Positions 3,918 through 31,987 of a stretch of DNA of 35,701 nt are shown here, one piece after another. Each line of letters begins with the position of its first letter. The first letter of the stretch is position 1. The position numbers and the translations under genes were made by a program. Source of the DNA: Bacteroidota bacterium (lineage in GTDB: Bacteria; Bacteroidota; Bacteroidia; 2-12-FULL-35-15); the NCBI GenBank assembly GCA_023251835.1, contig JAHEXZ010000054.1:1-35701 (forward strand). Reading direction: 5' to 3'. The notes beneath the pieces were generated by a model, which made no database searches, was not told where the DNA came from, and saw only the letters and a program-made list of their open reading frames with translations.

Positions 3918-4437
3918 AATTAATAATGCGAATTAGGGTTTGAATGAAAGACCCATTGTGGGTGGGTCATTTCGAGTTTATCGAGAAATCAGGGTAGCAA
4001 ATAAATTACGAAATTAAAATGAATTATTATGTTTATATATTAAAATGTGCTGACAGTAAATATTATACAGGCATTACCAATAATATAGAAAGGCGTTTAG
4101 AAGAACATAAACAGGGAATAAATAAAAACTGTTATACATACGCCAGAAGGCCACTGGAATTAGTATATAAAATAAGCTTTACAAAACCTAATGAAGCGAT
4201 AATATGGGAAAAGAAAATAAAAAACTGGAGCAGAAAAAAGAAAGAAGCATTAATGACTGAAAATTGGGACGACTTAATTAAATTTTCAAAAAAAGTAGTT
4301 AAATCAATAGGCCAGTATCATCAAATGCCTCACGCACGTTTCTCGATAAACTCGAAATGACCACAGCACAGAATTTTTTTTTTAGCTTATTCTCCTTTGA
4401 AAAAATAATTTTCAACCCCTAATTCGCATTAATAATT
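3918..4437. mobile_element. GIY-YIG cassette bounded by nested inverted repeats
   Basis: A 520-bp unit is enclosed by outer inverted repeats of 27 bp, matching at 25 of 27 positions (3918-3944 against 4411-4437; core AATGCGAATTAGGG). Inside these are perfect 24-bp inverted repeats (3965-3988 against 4339-4362; core TCATTTCGAGTTTATCGAG). The only gene within is the GIY-YIG nuclease at 4019-4360, whose last codons and stop lie in the right inner repeat. No clear target duplication is visible. I read it as a mobile or formerly mobile cassette; this is inferred from structure only. Confidence 0.6.
4019..4360 (+). CDS. Single-domain GIY-YIG nuclease family protein
   Basis: The protein has 113 residues, usual for the small stand-alone GIY-YIG family (YhbQ/UvrC-N-like). 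The signature tyrosines are in YYVYILKCADSKYYTGITNN (residues 3-22), the catalytic arginine is in NIERRLEEH, and the metal-binding glutamate is probably in AIIWEKKIK. A basic stretch (KNWSRKKKEAL) follows. The family cuts DNA with a metal-dependent single active site; the substrate of these small members is unclear. The C-terminal tail (PHARFSINSK) and the TGA are encoded by the right inner inverted repeat of the surrounding cassette, so gene and repeat have evolved as one unit. The ATG directly follows the left inner repeat and a short AT-rich leader. Nuclease assignment is firm; the link to mobility is inferred. Confidence 0.85.
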   Translation: MNYYVYILKCADSKYYTGITNNIERRLEEHKQGINKNCYTYARRPLELVYKISFTKPNEAIIWEKKIKNWSRKKKEALMTENWDDLIKFSKKVVKSIGQYHQMPHARFSINSK

Positions 4438-18816: not shown

Positions 18817-21201
18817 TTACTTAAAAACCATTACAGTTCCCTGGTATTGATATGGATTGCCACCGCATAAACTCGATGCTTTTATTAAATAAACATACAC
18901 TCCATCATCAACAGGCTTACCTTTATAAGTACCATCCCACCCGCTTTCAGCATCTTTCCATGAATAGAGCTGTTCTCCCCAACGGTTAAAAATTAGTCCT
19001 TCAAAGTTTGTTAATGCAACGCCAGCTACTTTGAAAATTTCATTTTTATCGTTATGGTCGGGAGTAAATGCGTTAGGTATAAATAAAGTAGAACCTCCAA
19101 GTTCAGGTAACTTTGAAATGGTATCCTTGCAGCCCAGATTATTTGTGGTTATCAGTTCCACTGGTTGTACCTGGGATGTAGTATATAAATGGCTTGGTGT
19201 TGGGTTGGCAGATGTATCATCATCCCCAAAACTCCACAAATAAGAGGCAGCACCGGAAGATAAATTGGTAAAAAGTATTTCGCATCCGTTAGGTGTCATG
19301 CTGAAATCGGCAGTTGGTTTCGGATTTATAGTTACAGTTGCTGTAGCCGTATTTGAACACCCATTGAGAGTGCCTGTAACAGTATAGGTTGTTGTTGAGA
19401 CAGGACTTACGCTTGCCGAATCTGTTCCTATATTGGTTGCTCCCGCAGACCATGAATAGCTTGTTCCGCCATCTGCCGTTAATATGACTGTTAAGCCAGG
19501 GCAGACAGAAGGTGAATTTACTGTAATTGTTGGCTTTTCATTAACAGTTATATCAAAACATAAATCAGTACCTGTAAAAACCGGGTTAGATGAAGTAACC
19601 CTGATTCTGTAACTATTGCCACCTGGGGTTCCGGCAGGAATTGTGATATTGGCAGTTCCGGATGCCGTTGTAGATAATACCCCAATATTTACAGCATTTG
19701 CAAAACTCCCAGAAGCATCAGATAGCTGTATAGCAAAAACATTACCTGAGGTATAAGTACCGGAGGCAAAAAAAGGAACTGTATAAGAACTTCCTGCGCA
19801 ATAAGCACTATCCGGAACAGGAACAATAGTTCGATTAGGAATTGAGTCTAATCTGGCAATGAATATGTCACCTGTACCAGAAGAAGTGAGAGAAGCAGAG
19901 CCGAATAGCGCAGTGCCAGCAAAGCTTCCTGTAATATAGGCCCTCTTATTATTATCCACAGCTATTTGGTTTCCGCCATTATCTGTAGCACCAGATCCTT
20001 GCTGCACCCATTGCAAATTAACATAGCTGCATGGGCTGGAACAATCATTGGTTGCATTGGTAGTATATTTGGCAACAAAAAGTTCTGAATTTCCTGTTGC
20101 TGTAACGAAGTTATTTTCAAAATTGGCTGTATTCTGAAAATAACCAGTAATGTATACAGCTAAGTCATTGTCAATTGCAATTCCCAGCCCCTGATCATTA
20201 CCAGTGCCACCGGCACTCTTTACCCATTCCCATATTCCTGAGGCAGTATATTTTGCAACAAAAATATCATCACCTCCGGAACTCGTGACAGTTAATCCTC
20301 CGAAATTTGCAGTATTTTGAAAATGCCCGGTAACATATAAGTTTCCACAGGGGTCGATGGTGATTTCATTTTCTTCCCACCACGCCTGATCAGCTATACC
20401 TGCATTTGTTGCTGTTGCTACTGATAATACTGTTCCTGAAGGGTTATACTTGGCAATAAAAAGACTGGAATAAGTTCCTGCAGCAGACGGAGTTATTGAT
20501 CCAAAAGTTGGAACGCCTGTATATCCTCCGACTACATATATATTTCCCGATGCATCAATGGCTATGCCTTTTCCAGCATCATATCCGCTTCCTCCTGCCT
20601 TTACTACCCACTGTACTATACCCTGGTTATTGTATTTTGCTAAAAACATATCGTATGTTGAAGCAGTACAGGTAATTATATTGCTTCCTCCAAAATTAAG
20701 TGTTCCTGAGAAATACCCTGTTAAGTATACATTTCCGGCAGTATCAATCCCAATTCCATCACCACTTGAACTGCCTCCCGTAGCGATTGATGTCCAATCA
20801 ACCATTCCTGCACTATTACATTTAACAACACCACATCCTGACCCACTGCTTGAATTGATTCCAACATAAGTATTATCCTGGTCATCAAGTGTCATTGCAT
20901 ACGTATAATCGTAACTTCCGCTGCTATATACATTGGTGATCCATTGCACTGCACCAGAGCTATCCAATCTTGCAACGTAAATAGGGGTACCAGATCCGGG
21001 CGAGGGTGATACTCCTCCCATAGTCATTGTATTTGCAAAACGGCCAGTTGCAAAGATATCTCCGGTAGAACCAATTTTTACCCCATAACCATATTCATAA
21101 GAACCTGAACATTGTGCATTTATAGCCCAGTTCCATGCCGGGGCTTGAGCCATAACATTTATGCTTGTAATGATAAGAAGAAGTGTAACTAATTTTTTCA
21201 T
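18817..21201 (-). CDS. SBBP-repeat surface protein with PKD and T9SS type B C-terminal domain
   Basis: The protein has 794 residues with a signal peptide (MKKLVTLLLIITSINVMAQ). Residues about 25-450 are SBBP-type repeats with the recurring unit DxxGNxYVTGYF then FVAKYN, expected to form a beta-propeller. Next come a beta domain (about 460-555), an Ig-like stretch with TYTVTGTLNGCSNTATATVTI, and a PKD domain with YLWSFGDDDTS near residue 660. The last 85 residues (LFIPNAFTPDHNDKNEIF, IFNRWGEQLYSW, YQGTVMVFK) are a T9SS type B sorting domain. It is exported to the surface. Its promoter carries the 44-bp element shared with the receiver gene and the five-gene run at 24.8 kb, so it very likely belongs to the regulon of the adjacent LytTR regulator. 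Confidence 0.85.
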   Translation of the reverse strand: MKKLVTLLLIITSINVMAQAPAWNWAINAQCSGSYEYGYGVKIGSTGDIFATGRFANTMTMGGVSPSPGSGTPIYVARLDSSGAVQWITNVYSSGSYDYTYAMTLDDQDNTYVGINSSSGSGCGVVKCNSAGMVDWTSIATGGSSSGDGIGIDTAGNVYLTGYFSGTLNFGGSNIITCTASTYDMFLAKYNNQGIVQWVVKAGGSGYDAGKGIAIDASGNIYVVGGYTGVPTFGSITPSAAGTYSSLFIAKYNPSGTVLSVATATNAGIADQAWWEENEITIDPCGNLYVTGHFQNTANFGGLTVTSSGGDDIFVAKYTASGIWEWVKSAGGTGNDQGLGIAIDNDLAVYITGYFQNTANFENNFVTATGNSELFVAKYTTNATNDCSSPCSYVNLQWVQQGSGATDNGGNQIAVDNNKRAYITGSFAGTALFGSASLTSSGTGDIFIARLDSIPNRTIVPVPDSAYCAGSSYTVPFFASGTYTSGNVFAIQLSDASGSFANAVNIGVLSTTASGTANITIPAGTPGGNSYRIRVTSSNPVFTGTDLCFDITVNEKPTITVNSPSVCPGLTVILTADGGTSYSWSAGATNIGTDSASVSPVSTTTYTVTGTLNGCSNTATATVTINPKPTADFSMTPNGCEILFTNLSSGAASYLWSFGDDDTSANPTPSHLYTTSQVQPVELITTNNLGCKDTISKLPELGGSTLFIPNAFTPDHNDKNEIFKVAGVALTNFEGLIFNRWGEQLYSWKDAESGWDGTYKGKPVDDGVYVYLIKASSLCGGNPYQYQGTVMVFK

Positions 21202-21236: not shown

Positions 21237-21244
21237 CAAATTTA
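21237..21244 (-). promoter_or_regulatory. -7 box (TAAATTTG) of the SBBP gene
   Basis: TAAATTTG on the minus strand (21244-21237) is a consensus -7 box 35 bp before the ATG at 21201 and 42 bp after the 44-bp element at 21287-21330. No -33 TTG is visible, as expected for a promoter that needs an activator. Confidence 0.6.
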
Positions 21245-21286
21245 GATAGACGGAAATGATAAAAAAGGAGAGCTTGGTATTTGTTT

Positions 21287-21330
21287 GTTTTTGATGGATA
21301 TTCGCTTATAAAGAGTTGAAATTTGTTTTT
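21287..21330 (-). promoter_or_regulatory. 44-bp conserved operator, copy 1 (putative LytTR site)
   Basis: Read on the minus strand it starts AAAAACAAATTTCAACTCTT and, after 9 variable bases, ends in ATATCCATCAAAAAC. It matches copy 2 (24650-24693) at 36 of 44 positions and copy 3 (21799-21842) at 32 of 44. The halves AATTTC and AATATC are 21 bp apart, two helical turns, as in LytTR direct-repeat sites. The opposite strand reads AGAGTTGAA, close to the known LytTR half-site. It lies upstream of the SBBP gene. LytTR binding is inferred. Confidence 0.65.
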
Positions 21331-21341
21331 GGCAGAAATAG

Positions 21342-21731
21342 TTATATTAAGGCAATTTCGTTGACCAGATTTAAAGATTTTTCAGCTTTCCTGATAGCGG
21401 AAATAAGGTATTCAGGGGAAACAGGTTTTAGGATATAATCTATGGGATTGAATGCAGAAGCTTCAGGAATATATTCTTCGGAAGCAGAAATAAAAATTAT
21501 TTTGAAATCAATAGGATTAAATTTTTTTAAGAGTTCGAACCCGCAACCATCCTGCATTCTAATGTCAAGCATTACAATATCCGGTCTATAAAGAATTATT
21601 GCATATATCCCGTCTTCTATACTTTCTGCCTGGGCAACTACTTTTATATTATCACAGCAAATCCCCAGAAGCGTAGTAAGCAATTCACGGCCGCTTTTTT
21701 CATCATCTATAATTATTAGTTTTAGCATCAA
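21342..21731 (-). CDS. Stand-alone response-regulator receiver protein
   Basis: The protein has 129 residues, receiver domain only. D9 and D10 (IIIDDE), the phospho-acceptor D56 (MLDIRM), S82 in place of the usual threonine (FISASEE) and K102 (ILKPVSPE) are all present, so it can probably be phosphorylated. It is clearly a relative of the receiver half of the LytTR regulator upstream: both have IIIDDEK or VIIDDEK, RPDIVMLD or QPDIVMLD, and DYILKPVSPE. It lacks any output domain. It has its own promoter with a copy of the 44-bp element, so it may be activated by the regulator and act as a phosphate sink or adaptor in a feedback loop. Alternatively it is a truncated duplicate. An ATG 3 bp downstream is an equally possible start. 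Confidence 0.85.
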   Translation of the reverse strand: MMLKLIIIDDEKSGRELLTTLLGICCDNIKVVAQAESIEDGIYAIILYRPDIVMLDIRMQDGCGFELLKKFNPIDFKIIFISASEEYIPEASAFNPIDYILKPVSPEYLISAIRKAEKSLNLVNEIALI

Positions 21732-21749
21732 TTAAATTTTATTTCCAGG

Positions 21750-21757
21750 CAAAAGTA
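21750..21757 (-). promoter_or_regulatory. -7 box (TACTTTTG) of the receiver gene
   Basis: On the minus strand TACTTTTG (21757-21750) lies 18 bp before the start codon and 41 bp after the 44-bp element at 21799-21842. No -33 TTG is visible. Confidence 0.55.
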
Positions 21758-21798
21758 CCGTTAAAGAATAAAAATTAATGATGAATTGATAAGTGTTA

Positions 21799-21842
21799 CT
21801 TCTTAATATATATTTGCTGTAAAGTAATTGAAATTTGTTTTT
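21799..21842 (-). promoter_or_regulatory. 44-bp conserved operator, copy 3
   Basis: The first 15 bases on the minus strand are identical to copy 1 (AAAAACAAATTTCAA). The distal half reads AGCAAATATATATTAA where copy 1 has AGCGAATATCCATCAA. In total 32 of 44 bases match copy 1. It lies in the gap between the LytTR gene and the receiver gene, oriented toward the receiver gene. Confidence 0.55.
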
Positions 21843-21852
21843 GGCAAATTTG

Positions 21853-22599
21853 TTAAATGCCCTCTATTAACTTCAGGAGTGCTTCTTTTTTGCGTGTGGC
21901 AACAGGAATAGCCGATTTGTCCTTCATAACAGCCATGTCGTCAGTTTTTTCAAAATAATCAAAATGTTCAAAATTGATAAGATGTGATTGGTGAATACGA
22001 ATAAAAGACCCGCCATTAAGAATTTCATCAAATTCTTTTAGTTGCCGGGAAACGAGTATTTTTTTTCCATCAGTTAAATAAAATCGGGTATAACTCCCAT
22101 CGGATTCACACCTGATAATATCTCTGACATCTATAGCGTAAATCCGCTCTGCTGTTCTTAATACTATTTTTTTAATCTCTCTGGAAACACTATTTAGATT
22201 ACTGAGTAGTGCATTTACCTTTAAATTAGTCTGTTCCCCTTCAATAACATTTTCTGTTTTATTAACTGCCACAACAAGATGTTCTGGTGAAACAGGTTTT
22301 AAAATATAGTCAATAGCACTGTATTGAAAAGCTTTTATAGCATATTCTTCATAAGCAGTGATAAAAATTATTTTGAAATTAATTGTTCCCAGCTGTTTCA
22401 AAAGGTCAAAGCCCGTTCCATCAGGCATTTGAACATCAAGCATAACAATATCCGGTTGAAATTTACGAATAACTTCAATGCCGGCTTTGACACTATCGGC
22501 TTCGGCCACAACCTCTATGTTTTTACAGCACAGGGTAAGAAGATTGCAAATAACATCCCTTCCATTTTTTTCATCGTCTATTATTACTGTTTTCAGCAT
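21853..22599 (-). CDS. LytTR-family response regulator
   Basis: The protein has 248 residues. The receiver domain spans 1-120 with D8/D9, phospho-acceptor D55 (MLDVQMPDG), T81 and K101 (ILKPVSPE). The C-terminal LytTR DNA-binding domain spans about 145-245, with AERIYAIDVRDIIRCESDGSYT, then LVSRQLKEFDEIL and FIRIHQSHLINF as landmarks (each part typical of the family). It follows the TPR-LytS kinase with an 11-bp gap, so the two form a classic two-component operon. LytTR proteins bind pairs of 9-bp direct repeats about 21 bp apart, which fits the 44-bp elements found beside this operon. It is the likely direct regulator of the surrounding surface-protein genes. Confidence 0.93.
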   Translation of the reverse strand: MLKTVIIDDEKNGRDVICNLLTLCCKNIEVVAEADSVKAGIEVIRKFQPDIVMLDVQMPDGTGFDLLKQLGTINFKIIFITAYEEYAIKAFQYSAIDYILKPVSPEHLVVAVNKTENVIEGEQTNLKVNALLSNLNSVSREIKKIVLRTAERIYAIDVRDIIRCESDGSYTRFYLTDGKKILVSRQLKEFDEILNGGSFIRIHQSHLINFEHFDYFEKTDDMAVMKDKSAIPVATRKKEALLKLIEGI

Positions 22600-22610
22600 T
22601 TTTTTATGGT

Positions 22611-24473
22611 TTAAATTTCAACAAATGGAATAGTAAATATAACTTTTGTTCCCTGAGTAACATTATCAGAACTTTTTAAATCAGTAATGTTAAGTTCAAT
22701 TTTTTTACGGTGTCTTTTATTCAAAAGTGTTAAACGTTCTTTTGTGATCACTGTTGCAAGGGATACATGTTTTTTTTCCTGAAAATTTTTTAATTTGGCC
22801 GCTTCCTCTCTTCCTATACCATTATCTTCAACCTCAAACAAAAGGTAATTATTTTTCATCAGAAACCGGATAATAATTTTGCCCCCTTCCTTTTTTTGTA
22901 GTAATCCATGTTCGATAGCATTTTCAATAAATGGCTGGGCAAGCATGGGTGGGATTGCAATAGATTCACTATTTATTTCAGGATCCACTTCTATTGAGTA
23001 ATCAAATTTATTATCAAAACGAAGTGCCTGAAGATCTAAATACAGGTTCAATCCTTTTAACTCTTTCTCAAGCGATACCATTTCATGTCTTGAATTATCA
23101 AGTATCATCCGTATTAAACCGGCAAATTTTGAAAGAAAACTCCCCGCATTCTGCGGATCGTTTTTGTAAATATAACTTTGTATAGAATTTAATGAGTTAA
23201 AGATAAAGTGTGGATTCATTTGGGCCCTCAGCAGTTTCTGTTCTAACTCGGAAGTTTTTTGCATTGTTTGTAACCTGTTGTGCCTTATTAATATAAATGC
23301 AAATAATACAACAAATAACGTAGATCCAGATAAGCCATAAATAAAATAATTTTTTCGATTTAATTCATATTTTTGAATCTCATTCTTCTGAGCCAGTATT
23401 TTGTTTTCTTTGTTTCTTTCTTCACTTTCATATCTTGCATTTAATTCTGCTATTTGTTTTCTTGATTTTTCATTCAACAGCGTATCTTTAATTCCTGATG
23501 ATAATTCAAGGTATTCATACGCCTGTTTGTAATCTCCTTTGATTTTATATGTTTCAGCAAGCAAACGTGAACCATTTTTAAGTATTTCATAAGCCTTTAT
23601 TGTTTTTGCAATAGCTAATCCATTGGAAAGATACTTTATGGCATCGTTGGTATTGCTTTGCATGAATCGTATTTCTCCCATATTAACAAGCAAATTGGCC
23701 TGACGCTGCGAAATATCTGTTTTTGGATAAATTCTGAATACTTCTGAAAATTGTTCTTCTGCTTTCTCATAATATTCTGCATCATCTTTTTTTTTTGCCA
23801 ATTCCATATAAGTTTCCCCAATATTAATTCTGGCAATTTCAATCCCATTCGCATCTTTTTCTTTTATATACCCTTCAAGTGCTTGAAAATAAAAGTCTAA
23901 CGATTTTTCATGCTCTCCCAATCCACGATAAACAACACTTATATTGAGTAACGAATTGTTTAAAGAATTATAAGCTCCAACCTTTCTAAAAAGTTTAATA
24001 GCCTGAAAATGAAATTCTAATGCTTTTTCATAATCGGCTTTAGAGTCGGCTATCGCACCAATACTTGCATATTCATTGCCCAGATTATTATAACAATGGG
24101 CTATATTTATTATATCACCAGTTTCTTGAGCTAATTTCAATGATTTTAGGTAATACTCAATCGCTTTTTCATAATAAGCTTGATAATCATAAACGTTACC
24201 TAGCTTTCGCAAAGCAACTGCAATTCTATGTTTATCTTCTGTTTTTTCTGCTAATTTTAGTGCTTGTTCAGCATATTGAACACCATTTATAAAATTGTTG
24301 TTCAGAAGAGAACACCAGCTTAATTGATTTAAAACAGCAATCTTAATGGTGTCTTCTTTTACTGTATTTAGGATATTCTGGAGAGAATCAATTTGATAAT
24401 TGTTAATAGATTGAGCACCGGTAATAAGTGCAAAAAAATAAGTAAAAAAACTAATTTTTAATTTTTTTTCCAT
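22611..24473 (-). CDS. TPR-containing LytS-type sensor histidine kinase
   Basis: The protein has 620 residues. An N-terminal hydrophobic signal or anchor (about 6-19) leads to a periplasmic domain of about six or more TPR units (60-330), for example YYEKAIEYYLKSLKLAQETG (100-119) and HEKSLDFYFQALEGY (188-202). A coiled coil (335-372) and a membrane segment (YFIYGLSGSTLFVVLFAFIL, 376-395) follow. The cytoplasmic His_kinase domain has the NPHFIFNSLNSI motif with H422, an N-box with N518 in PFIENAIEHG, and DNGIG (550-554). The ATG at 24473 is preferred over an in-frame TTG 9 bp upstream. It is transcribed with the LytTR gene and away from the five-gene run. The TPR domain suggests sensing of a protein or peptide in the periplasm. 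Confidence 0.9.
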   Translation of the reverse strand: MEKKLKISFFTYFFALITGAQSINNYQIDSLQNILNTVKEDTIKIAVLNQLSWCSLLNNNFINGVQYAEQALKLAEKTEDKHRIAVALRKLGNVYDYQAYYEKAIEYYLKSLKLAQETGDIINIAHCYNNLGNEYASIGAIADSKADYEKALEFHFQAIKLFRKVGAYNSLNNSLLNISVVYRGLGEHEKSLDFYFQALEGYIKEKDANGIEIARINIGETYMELAKKKDDAEYYEKAEEQFSEVFRIYPKTDISQRQANLLVNMGEIRFMQSNTNDAIKYLSNGLAIAKTIKAYEILKNGSRLLAETYKIKGDYKQAYEYLELSSGIKDTLLNEKSRKQIAELNARYESEERNKENKILAQKNEIQKYELNRKNYFIYGLSGSTLFVVLFAFILIRHNRLQTMQKTSELEQKLLRAQMNPHFIFNSLNSIQSYIYKNDPQNAGSFLSKFAGLIRMILDNSRHEMVSLEKELKGLNLYLDLQALRFDNKFDYSIEVDPEINSESIAIPPMLAQPFIENAIEHGLLQKKEGGKIIIRFLMKNNYLLFEVEDNGIGREEAAKLKNFQEKKHVSLATVITKERLTLLNKRHRKKIELNITDLKSSDNVTQGTKVIFTIPFVEI

Positions 24474-24554
24474 TAGTTGCAAGATAATCCATTTTCCTCT
24501 GTTAAAACTAAGAAAAATTAAGTTTCCTCATAAAAAAATAAAAACAAAAGGACA

Positions 24555-24568
24555 CGGTTGATCAACCG
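24555..24568. promoter_or_regulatory. 14-bp perfect palindrome in the divergent regulatory region
   Basis: CGGTTGATCAACCG is a perfect palindrome in the 356-bp gap between the kinase start and the GTG of the divergent run. It is GC-rich against AT-rich surroundings and has no T-run, so an operator is more likely than a terminator. The binding protein is unknown. Confidence 0.45.
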
Positions 24569-24649
24569 ACAAAACAAAGTATTATTATCAAATCATTTAC
24601 ACATCATCTTGTAAAGTTTTATATATCCCATATAGCACAAATTTAAACT

Positions 24650-24693
24650 AAAAACAAATTCCAACTCTTCTCAGACAGATATCCATCAAAAAC
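24650..24693 (+). promoter_or_regulatory. 44-bp conserved operator, copy 2 (putative LytTR site)
   Basis: It starts AAAAACAAATTCCAACTCTT and ends ATATCCATCAAAAAC, with 9 variable bases between, identical to copy 1 at 36 of 44 positions and in the same orientation to its gene. The -7 box TAAATTTG follows after 43 bp. It stands upstream of the run of surface genes that starts near 24830. Confidence 0.65.
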
Positions 24694-24736
24694 CTGCAGA
24701 TATAAACTTTTCATTATTAGACAATTTCATTTCTTC

Positions 24737-24754
24737 TAAATTTGTCTAAATTTG
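24737..24754 (+). promoter_or_regulatory. Tandem -7 boxes (TAAATTTG twice)
   Basis: TAAATTTG occurs at 24737-24744 and again at 24747-24754. The first is 43 bp after the conserved operator, matching the 42- and 41-bp spacings at the two other promoters. No -33 TTG precedes it. Confidence 0.55.
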
Positions 24755-24865: not shown

Positions 24866-25342
24866 ATGAGTTTGTTTAAAACCATTCTTATGGTATTTAT
24901 CTATTTCCCAACAGGGAATGCACAATCATTAATACGTGAATGTATTACAAGTACTGGTAACTATATCTCAGAAAATGGAACCACAGTTCAACAAACTATT
25001 GGACAGTCTTATGGAACAACCTCCAACTATAGTGATAACATAAGATATAACCCAGGATTTCAACAGCCTGTTTTTACCATCGAAACAATCAAATCCTCTA
25101 TTGATGTAACTGTATTTCCCAACCCCACTTCAAACCTGATAACTATTGAAACCTTAACAGAATTGAAAGAAATAACCCTTCAAATAACAAATATCGCTGG
25201 TCAAATTCTTTTTAATGAAAAAACAGGTGTCTTTAAAAGTCGTATTATTGATTGCTCTGATTGGGCCAATGGCACCTATTTAATTACCCTATCCGATCCT
25301 GAAAACAGTTTGTATTCGTCAAAACTAATTATATCAAAATAA
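24866..25342 (+). CDS. Small T9SS type A cargo protein
   Basis: The protein has 158 residues from the ATG at 24866; a GTG at 24830 would add 12 polar residues before the signal peptide and is less likely, since a GG-rich stretch precedes the ATG. The signal peptide is MSLFKTILMVFIYFPTGNAQ. The short mature part (SGNYISENGTTVQQTIGQSYG-like region, about 28-50, then IRYNPGFQQPVF) is the kind of pre-sorting segment seen in many Bacteroidota surface proteins. The last 80 residues (VTVFPNPTSNLITIET, LQITNIAGQILF, YLITLSDPENSLYSSKLIIS in parts) are a T9SS type A sorting domain. It is the first gene of a co-directional run; the next gene starts 2 bp after its stop. Confidence 0.78.
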   Translation: MSLFKTILMVFIYFPTGNAQSLIRECITSTGNYISENGTTVQQTIGQSYGTTSNYSDNIRYNPGFQQPVFTIETIKSSIDVTVFPNPTSNLITIETLTELKEITLQITNIAGQILFNEKTGVFKSRIIDCSDWANGTYLITLSDPENSLYSSKLIISK

Positions 25343-25344
25343 AC

Positions 25345-26061
25345 ATGAATAATCACTACTTAAAATGTATCTTTCTATTGCCAGTACTGCTTTTGCTGAA
25401 GCATTCTGTTGCACAGTCAAATGTAACTTACAGTCCAACAGATGAGCAGAACATAGTTTCTTCTGATCGTCTTAATAAAGACTCTATTCCTCCACAGCCA
25501 ATTGCACAATCAATCATAACTTTTGATGCAAGCCAGGTGTTTTCAACATTTAAATATATCGATAGCCAGGGCAATAAATTAAAAGACCTTGAAAGAAACG
25601 TTACAACAGCTACCAGTGTTGGTTATCATTACTTACTTCCAAATGGACTGTTTATCCGTGTAAATACCGGAACACGCAAAGCCGGTGCATCCTTTGTTTA
25701 CAATGAAACAATTGTTAGCTGGGACGTTCAATATATGGATGCGAATGTGGGTTTGGGATATATACATAACAAATGGAAATTTAAGCCTTATTTTTCTGCA
25801 TCACCTTATTTTGCATATATGTTAAAAGCTAATCAAACAATAGGGTTTGATAATTATGATATTAAAAAAGACAAATCCGTTAGTACCTCTGATTTTGGAA
25901 TCTTCCTTTCTCCGGGTGTAAGAATGGCCTTAGCTAAACGTATTTCACTTTATGCAGAATATAAATATATACTGGGATTACAGGATATAGAAAAATCCGC
26001 AACAGAAACATTATTCAACAGAGGTTTTTCATTTCATTTAGGACTCTCTCTGGCAATTTAA
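25345..26061 (+). CDS. Outer-membrane beta-barrel protein (OMP_b-brl/PorT-like)
   Basis: The protein has 238 residues with a signal peptide (CIFLLPVLLLLKHSVAQ). After a polar linker (about 25-60) the chain alternates aromatic and polar residues in barrel strands: VGYHYLLPNGLFIRVNTG, WDVQYMDANVGLGYI, FKPYFSASPYFAYML, FGIFLSPGVRMALA, ISLYAEYKYILGL. It ends in FSFHLGLSLAI, as membrane barrels do. The function is not recognised. Its place 2 bp after a T9SS cargo gene and 74 bp before the giant fibre gene suggests that it anchors or assembles those products at the outer membrane (inferred). Confidence 0.72.
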   Translation: MNNHYLKCIFLLPVLLLLKHSVAQSNVTYSPTDEQNIVSSDRLNKDSIPPQPIAQSIITFDASQVFSTFKYIDSQGNKLKDLERNVTTATSVGYHYLLPNGLFIRVNTGTRKAGASFVYNETIVSWDVQYMDANVGLGYIHNKWKFKPYFSASPYFAYMLKANQTIGFDNYDIKKDKSVSTSDFGIFLSPGVRMALAKRISLYAEYKYILGLQDIEKSATETLFNRGFSFHLGLSLAI

Positions 26062-26114: not shown

Positions 26115-31250
<5,136 letters not shown>

Positions 31251-31258
31251 CCTCAAAA

Positions 31259-31987
31259 ATGAAAACACTCTGGCTACTTTTTGCATTGCCAGTTGTAACA
31301 ATAGTTGCAAATGCACAAGCCCCCAACTTCCTCTGGGCAAAAAGCACTGAAGGAATTTCTGAAGACCAGGTGCAAAGTATCGCTACCGATGCCAATGGAA
31401 ATGCTTATATCACAGGCTATTTTTATAGCCCTGCAATTACCTTTAGTACTACTACTTTAACAAATGCGGGAGGTCAGGATATTTTTATTGCCAAATTCGA
31501 CTCCGGTGGCAGTGTGCTTTGGGCAAAAAGCGAGGGAGGGATTAAATATGATTATGGACAAGGCATTGCTACCGATGCCAATGGCAATATTTATGTTTCC
31601 GGACAATTCAGTAGCCCCACAATTACCTTTGATACCATTACTTTGACAAATGCAGTTAATATCTATACGTATGATATTTTTATTGCCAAAATAGGTGGTG
31701 ATGCTACCAGCATAGCAGAAAAGCATTCTTTTGGCCAAAACAACCTCATACTTTATCCGAATCCTAATACCGGAAAATTTATTCTTGAAGTAAACACTAA
31801 CCAGAACCAGGAAACCGATATTGAAATTTTAAATTCATTGTCACAAACAGTAAGCCAACAGCACAAACAACTTACTTCCGGAAAAAATACCTTGTACCTG
31901 AATATCGGAGATCAGCCCAAAGGAATTTATTTTATCAAAATTAAAATTGAAAATACAAGCATCAATAAAAAGATTATTATTCAATAA
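31259..31987 (+). CDS. SBBP-repeat T9SS type A protein
   Basis: The protein has 242 residues. The signal peptide is MKTLWLLFALPVVTIVANAQ. Two SBBP repeats follow, with IATDANGNAYITGYF (about 40-54) and IATDANGNIYVSGQF (about 102-116) and the strands DIFIAKFDSGG and DIFIAKIGGD. The C-terminal 75 residues (LILYPNPNTGKFILEV, DIEILNSLSQTV, PKGIYFIKIKI) are a T9SS type A sorting domain. It is much shorter than the SBBP protein at 18817-21201 and looks like a reduced relative with a different sorting class. It starts 8 bp after the fibre gene and is clearly in the same operon. Confidence 0.83.
   Translation: MKTLWLLFALPVVTIVANAQAPNFLWAKSTEGISEDQVQSIATDANGNAYITGYFYSPAITFSTTTLTNAGGQDIFIAKFDSGGSVLWAKSEGGIKYDYGQGIATDANGNIYVSGQFSSPTITFDTITLTNAVNIYTYDIFIAKIGGDATSIAEKHSFGQNNLILYPNPNTGKFILEVNTNQNQETDIEILNSLSQTVSQQHKQLTSGKNTLYLNIGDQPKGIYFIKIKIENTSINKKIIIQ

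Follow-up and report, generated by a model that had tools for sequence, protein, structure and literature searches.

The three copies of a 44-bp element that surround a sensor kinase-LytTR operon in this DNA are probably operators of the operon's own response regulator, RR1. Each operator carries three half-sites, from which RR1 would activate a CHU_C gene, an operon of surface proteins and the truncated regulator RR2, which may in turn feed back on the system. That the copies are docking sites of RR1 is very probable on the evidence of sequence. The window, the whole stretch of DNA that was analysed (35,701 nt), comprises positions 1-35,701 of the forward strand of contig JAHEXZ010000054.1 from a Bacteroidota bacterium (GCA_023251835.1; GTDB lineage Bacteria; Bacteroidota; Bacteroidia; 2-12-FULL-35-15). 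The host genome is a 4.1-Mb draft in 171 contigs, and genome-wide statements are based on pattern searches.

The sensor kinase, RR1 and RR2 form one minus-strand operon (Table 1). The LytTR domain of RR1 matches PF04397 with 59.9 bits in Pfam; the solved structures nearest by sequence are receiver domains, and the alignments shown do not extend over the LytTR part. Copies 1 and 2 are directed at the CHU_C gene and at RR2, respectively, and copy 3 at a series of surface-protein genes, in keeping with the initial annotation, which had each copy pointing to a gene. Judged by ORF spacing and Pfam content, the Por_Secre_tail gene is probably the first gene of a surface operon, of which the collagen-like protein is possibly the main product. 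This protein has 1704 aa and a C-terminal endosialidase chaperone (Peptidase_S74) domain, and the G+C content of its gene is about 44%, compared with 31-32% just upstream.

Table 1. Positions of the features discussed; coordinates refer to the window unless a locus (L) of another contig or genome is named
Feature	Position	Strand	Description
Sensor kinase	22611-24473	-	TPR repeats, His_kinase (LytS-type), HATPase_c; Pfam PF13424, PF06580, PF02518
RR1	21853-22599	-	Response regulator, REC and LytTR; Pfam PF00072, PF04397; proposed operator-binding protein
RR2	21342-21728	-	REC-only RR1 paralog, LytTR domain lost
Copy 1 target gene	18817-21201	-	SBBP/PKD protein with CHU_C type IX secretion signal; Pfam
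Copy 3 target gene	24866-25342	+	Por_Secre_tail protein, divergent from sensor operon; Pfam
Genes downstream of 24866-25342	25345-26061; 26136-31250; 31259-31987		OMP_b-brl; collagen-like/Peptidase_S74; SBBP; Pfam
44-mer copy 1	21287-21330	-	
44-mer copy 2	21799-21842	-	
44-mer copy 3	24650-24693	+	
Operator copy 1	21271-21325	-	External matrix triple 15.1, rank 2 of 71,294
Half-sites, copy 1	21313-21325; 21292-21304; 21271-21283		CAAATTTCAACTC; CGAATATCCATCA; CAAATACCAAGCT (weak)
Operator copy 2	21783-21837	-	External matrix triple 22.0, rank 1 of 71,294
Half-sites, copy 2	21825-21837; 21804-21816; 21783-21795		Scores 9.1, 7.4, 5.6; all good
Operator copy 3	24655-24709	+	External matrix triple 13.6, rank 3 of 71,294
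Half-sites, copy 3	24655-24667; 24676-24688; 24697-24709		First half-site weak
-7 box, copy 1	21237-21244	-	TAAATTTG, 26 bp past third half-site; before CHU_C gene
-7 box, copy 2	21750-21757	-	TACTTTTG, 25 bp past third half-site; before RR2
-7 box, copy 3	24737-24744	+	TAAATTTG, 27 bp past third half-site
Second box, copy 3	24747-24754	+	TAAATTTG
C11 paralog locus	L159 5681-6341; L159 9511-10621; L204 10744-10984		Same genome, contig C11; LytTR/TPR-kinase paralog with its three operators
LytTR-only regulator remnants	L187 7183-7668; L157 7685-8170; L188 5160-5639; L040 3606-4094		

Re-reading of the sequence returned the three 44-bp copies at exactly the coordinates and on the strands first reported, and reproduced their identities to copy 1 (36/44 for copy 3 and 32/44 for copy 2); copies 2 and 3 share 29/44. 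When the window was simulated 100 times with a Markov-1 model, copy 1 met a best match of 26.2 on average and of 29 at most. A 29/44 match at 4401 (+), where the 44-mer stops just short of a start codon, was rejected as an operator, as its score is the chance maximum and it has no phased triple. Across the whole 4.1-Mb genome, the first 20 bases of the element were matched with 0 mismatches at the three copies only, and a search for half-sites one and two as a joint pattern, with up to three mismatches allowed, found the three copies and no other place. Scatter through the genome without relation to promoters had been named as the outcome that would speak against a regulon; all three occurrences lie around the operon and before promoter boxes.

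The repeat spacing of 21 bp, about two helical turns, stands out among spacings of 10-32 bp. In intergenic DNA near LytTR genes of other Bacteroidota, we counted 18 direct repeats at an offset of 21, mostly two to five at other offsets and, as the second highest value, 13 at an offset of 16; the best offset-21 repeats share a half-site near CGnATAnnnATnA. A half-site matrix was built from 25 half-sites, all from other LytTR loci and none from the window, and the window was scanned for three such half-sites in a row, each 21 bp from the next. The three copies took the first three ranks among 71,294 window positions (Table 1), in a test that is not wholly blind because the matrix sites were picked after the 21-bp-offset search and by their resemblance to the window element; the next non-overlapping place scored 6.8. 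With leave-one-locus-out matrices the worst rank of any copy was 6, and a weaker matrix from four further loci alone ranked copies 1, 2 and 3 at 1, 12 and 18. Triple similarity without a matrix was by itself weak at finding operators.

These rankings indicate that each operator has three half-sites. The 44-mer holds the first two in each case, and a weaker third follows at +21. The third half-sites are weak overall and weakest in copy 1 (-1.9), and the first of copy 3 scores 1.0, so that the triple is clear in copy 2 and weaker in copies 1 and 3. Of the two halves 21 bp apart originally described as LytTR geometry, the spacing thus stands, and the number of halves becomes three by the matrix. 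The reading of one half as AGAGTTGAA on the other strand had to be given up, as it is lost in copy 2 and in relatives; the conserved half-site, read on the promoter strand, is CGnATAnnnATnA.

The promoter side of the arrays is equally regular. TAnnTTTG boxes 42, 41 and 43 bp past the 44-mers of copies 1, 2 and 3 were found again, as was the lack of a -33 TTG, there being no TTG in the 30 bp before any of the three boxes. Of the features of a Bacteroidota primary-sigma promoter, the TAnnTTTG sequence is therefore present at 3/3 promoters and the -33 TTG at 0/3. Over 23 operators of this and other genomes, a strict TAnnTTTG occurs within 80 bp nine times, and eight of these lie 25-27 bp past the proximal half-site, where about 0.06 would be expected from a frequency of 8.6e-4 per position. 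As the box of such promoters spans -12 to -5 (PMC9723704), the proximal half-site would cover about -51 to -39, and the half-sites would be centred near -45, -66 and -87.

The missing -33 TTG suggests activator-dependent promoters, of which it is the expected mark, and together with the geometry of the arrays it points to activation through contact with RNA polymerase. It is from this geometry that we infer activation rather than repression. The opposite arrangement, in which the regulator blocks transcription until a signal releases it, has a precedent in the LytTR protein CoxC, which acts on three direct repeats and represses from sites overlapping -35 (PMC11347149). However, the arrays stop 25-27 bp short of the -7 box and stand in place of a -33 element instead of overlapping one, none of the boxes has a TTG in the 30 bp before it, and most LytTR regulators are stated to bind upstream of -35 and to activate (PMC11347149). 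We therefore regard repression as unlikely.

Conservation ties the arrays to LytTR genes. We compared 13 ortholog loci, most of them sharing 50% identity or more with RR1, and set an intergenic triple of at least 15 as the threshold. At a spacing of 21 bp, 7/13 loci carried such a triple and 6/13 fell below the threshold, and at 19 other spacings (13-32) the count was 0-1 of 13. Clear triples were found in L158, L187 and L196; L195 and L157 have sub-threshold 21-bp pairs in the expected gap, with TACTTTTG about 26 bp further on in L195. The gene order of L187 and L040/L196 (kinase, RR1, operator, truncated RR2, operator, large secreted protein) is as in the window, and a layout of sensor, LytTR gene, operator, truncated regulator, operator and surface protein recurs in other families. 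The distance from the proximal half-site to TAnnTTTG, 25-27 bp, is equal in the window and in other genomes. Absence of the element near orthologous LytTR genes had been put forward as a second adverse outcome; 21-bp-phased operators were present in other families, as part of the seven loci above. The initial proposal of a LytTR-centred regulon therefore holds in its core, with operators around RR1 and 21-bp phasing in relatives, and is corrected in its reach: this is a local regulon, whose three targets include RR1's own truncated paralog.

The link between RR1 and the element is drawn from sequence, which leaves room for the sites to belong to another regulator, with the LytTR genes adjacent by coincidence. 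Against this, the 21-bp phasing recurs beside LytTR genes in many families, and the host genome holds two LytTR paralogs, each accompanied by a separate operator set restricted to its vicinity, which makes such a coincidence highly improbable. The second paralog, on contig C11, is 48% identical and accompanied by a TPR kinase. Its operators have a different half-site, CCGAATTTTAAT, with phasing and box distance equal to those of the window; exactly three occur genome-wide, all on C11, and this supports a private, local operator set for each LytTR paralog. Each C11 operator precedes genes for small double-glycine-leader peptides (MKTLTTENAAIVTGG..., MKTLTTDNSKTITGGG...). A Peptidase_C39 transporter, the only one found in the genome, lies nearby on C11, as does a gene for a probable membrane-fusion (HlyD-like) protein, so that this Bacteroidota genome seems to carry a regulated locus for bacteriocins or signal peptides on C11.

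The receivers of RR1 and RR2 are identical at 67/116 positions, and RR2 retains the conserved receiver D-D, D, S and K. Operators begin 10 and 11 bp past the stops of RR1 and RR2. The repeat spacing is 871 from gene to gene and 512 from operator to operator, and the difference of 359 bp is about the size of one LytTR domain with its linker. On these grounds copies 1 and 2 most likely stem from a tandem duplication in which RR1 was copied together with its downstream operator. The start of both copies so close to the stops of two paralogous genes might mean that their similarity is a functionless by-product of that duplication, but copy 3 lies outside it, the flanks have diverged around conserved half-sites and a conserved box spacing, and operators persist at the same two places in independent genomes; this explanation is scarcely plausible. 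Hardly credible at all is a mobile or invertible segment that includes the operon, with copies 1 and 3 as its terminal inverted repeats (78-nt arms in inverted orientation, 71% complementary, 3.3 kb apart), a reading rejected because the scanned proteins in or beside the segment include no recombinase or transposase, a third copy lies inside, the similarity extends to the half-sites and the box, in register with the promoter, and in relatives such arrays lie before genes without inverted arrangement (L187 and L040, all on the same strand).

We thus favour operators bound by RR1. In the model that we propose, RR1 would receive a phosphate from the TPR sensor kinase and bind the three imperfect 13-bp half-sites (direct repeats in 21-bp steps, read toward the promoter) cooperatively, the strong middle site first. 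RR1 would then recruit RNA polymerase, the proximal half-site adjoining the place of the missing -33 element, and turn on the CHU_C gene from copy 1, RR2 from copy 2 and the T9SS/collagen-like surface operon from copy 3. RR2 consists of a receiver and lacks a domain for DNA binding, and we infer its feedback role from this domain content: once induced, it might drain phosphate from the kinase or hetero-dimerize with RR1, and so damp the switch. In L187, L040, L157 and L188, the LytTR-only regulators directly follow a full-length LytTR gene; here RR2 has kept its LytTR domain and lost most of its receiver, the opposite of RR2 in the window. We raise only tentatively the idea of a widespread Bacteroidota circuit, in which the private triple operator of a TPR-sensor/LytTR operon drives its own truncated regulator beside surface proteins, and in which opposite truncations might serve the same limiting or tuning purpose.

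By sequence, the closest known counterparts appear to be other LytTR operators, namely those of YpdB and AgrA and the triple repeats of RcoM and CoxC. The published LytTR half-site consensus is [TA][AC][CA]GTTN[AG][TG], and the window half-sites (CGnATAnnnATnA) resemble it only in part. The systems of AgrA, PlnC and VirR differ from the window in having another half-site, usually two half-sites, and a sigma-A promoter rather than TAnnTTTG. These Firmicutes regulators resemble it in having paired 9-11-bp repeats, 11-13 bp apart, upstream of promoters. A LytTR site in general is typically a pair with these repeat and spacer lengths, and the sites have no common consensus (PMC4847170). The yhjX operator of Escherichia coli has direct repeats of GGCATTTCAT, which YpdB occupies in order from high to low affinity (PMC4847170). 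YpdA/YpdB shares with the window a LytS-type kinase, a LytTR regulator and direct repeats, GGCATTTCAT resembling CGnATAnnnAT, but has two half-sites rather than three, a sigma-70 promoter and a different kind of target gene. The LytTR domains of RcoM-1 and CoxC sit on three direct repeats at steps of about two helical turns (PMC11347149), similar to those described here, although both are one-component CO sensors with the half-site TTCNNGCA, and CoxC represses. Within the Bacteroidota, FimS/FimR of Porphyromonas gingivalis likewise combines a TPR-containing sensor kinase with surface structures, but the window kinase matches the NCBIfam FimS model weakly (90 bits, against a cut-off of 600); falling so far below the family cut-off, it is not a FimS ortholog. 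A full-text search of open-licence papers found no description of LytTR operators in Bacteroidota, and a triple LytTR operator in this phylum is apparently undescribed.

LytTR regulators are abundant in Bacteroidota. The combination of half-site, 21-bp phasing and 25-27 bp to TAnnTTTG amounts to a target-prediction rule for each LytTR paralog, which could tie type IX-secreted surface proteins to their controlling sensor from sequence. The paralog beside the double-glycine-peptide genes offers an immediate second application.

A genus-wide search for the paired half-site pattern was set aside, since its matches were mostly scattered places and minisatellites with a 21-bp period (genomes G004, G013 and G012); half-sites from these matches were excluded from the final matrix. 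The minisatellites, for example CGAATAATCATTACTCGAGTC and CGCATATTGAAAACAAAAATT, are intergenic and occur in other genomes of the genus, at L167/L169 (G004, contigs C45 and C81) and at L163-L165 (G013 and G012), and their unit resembles the half-site.
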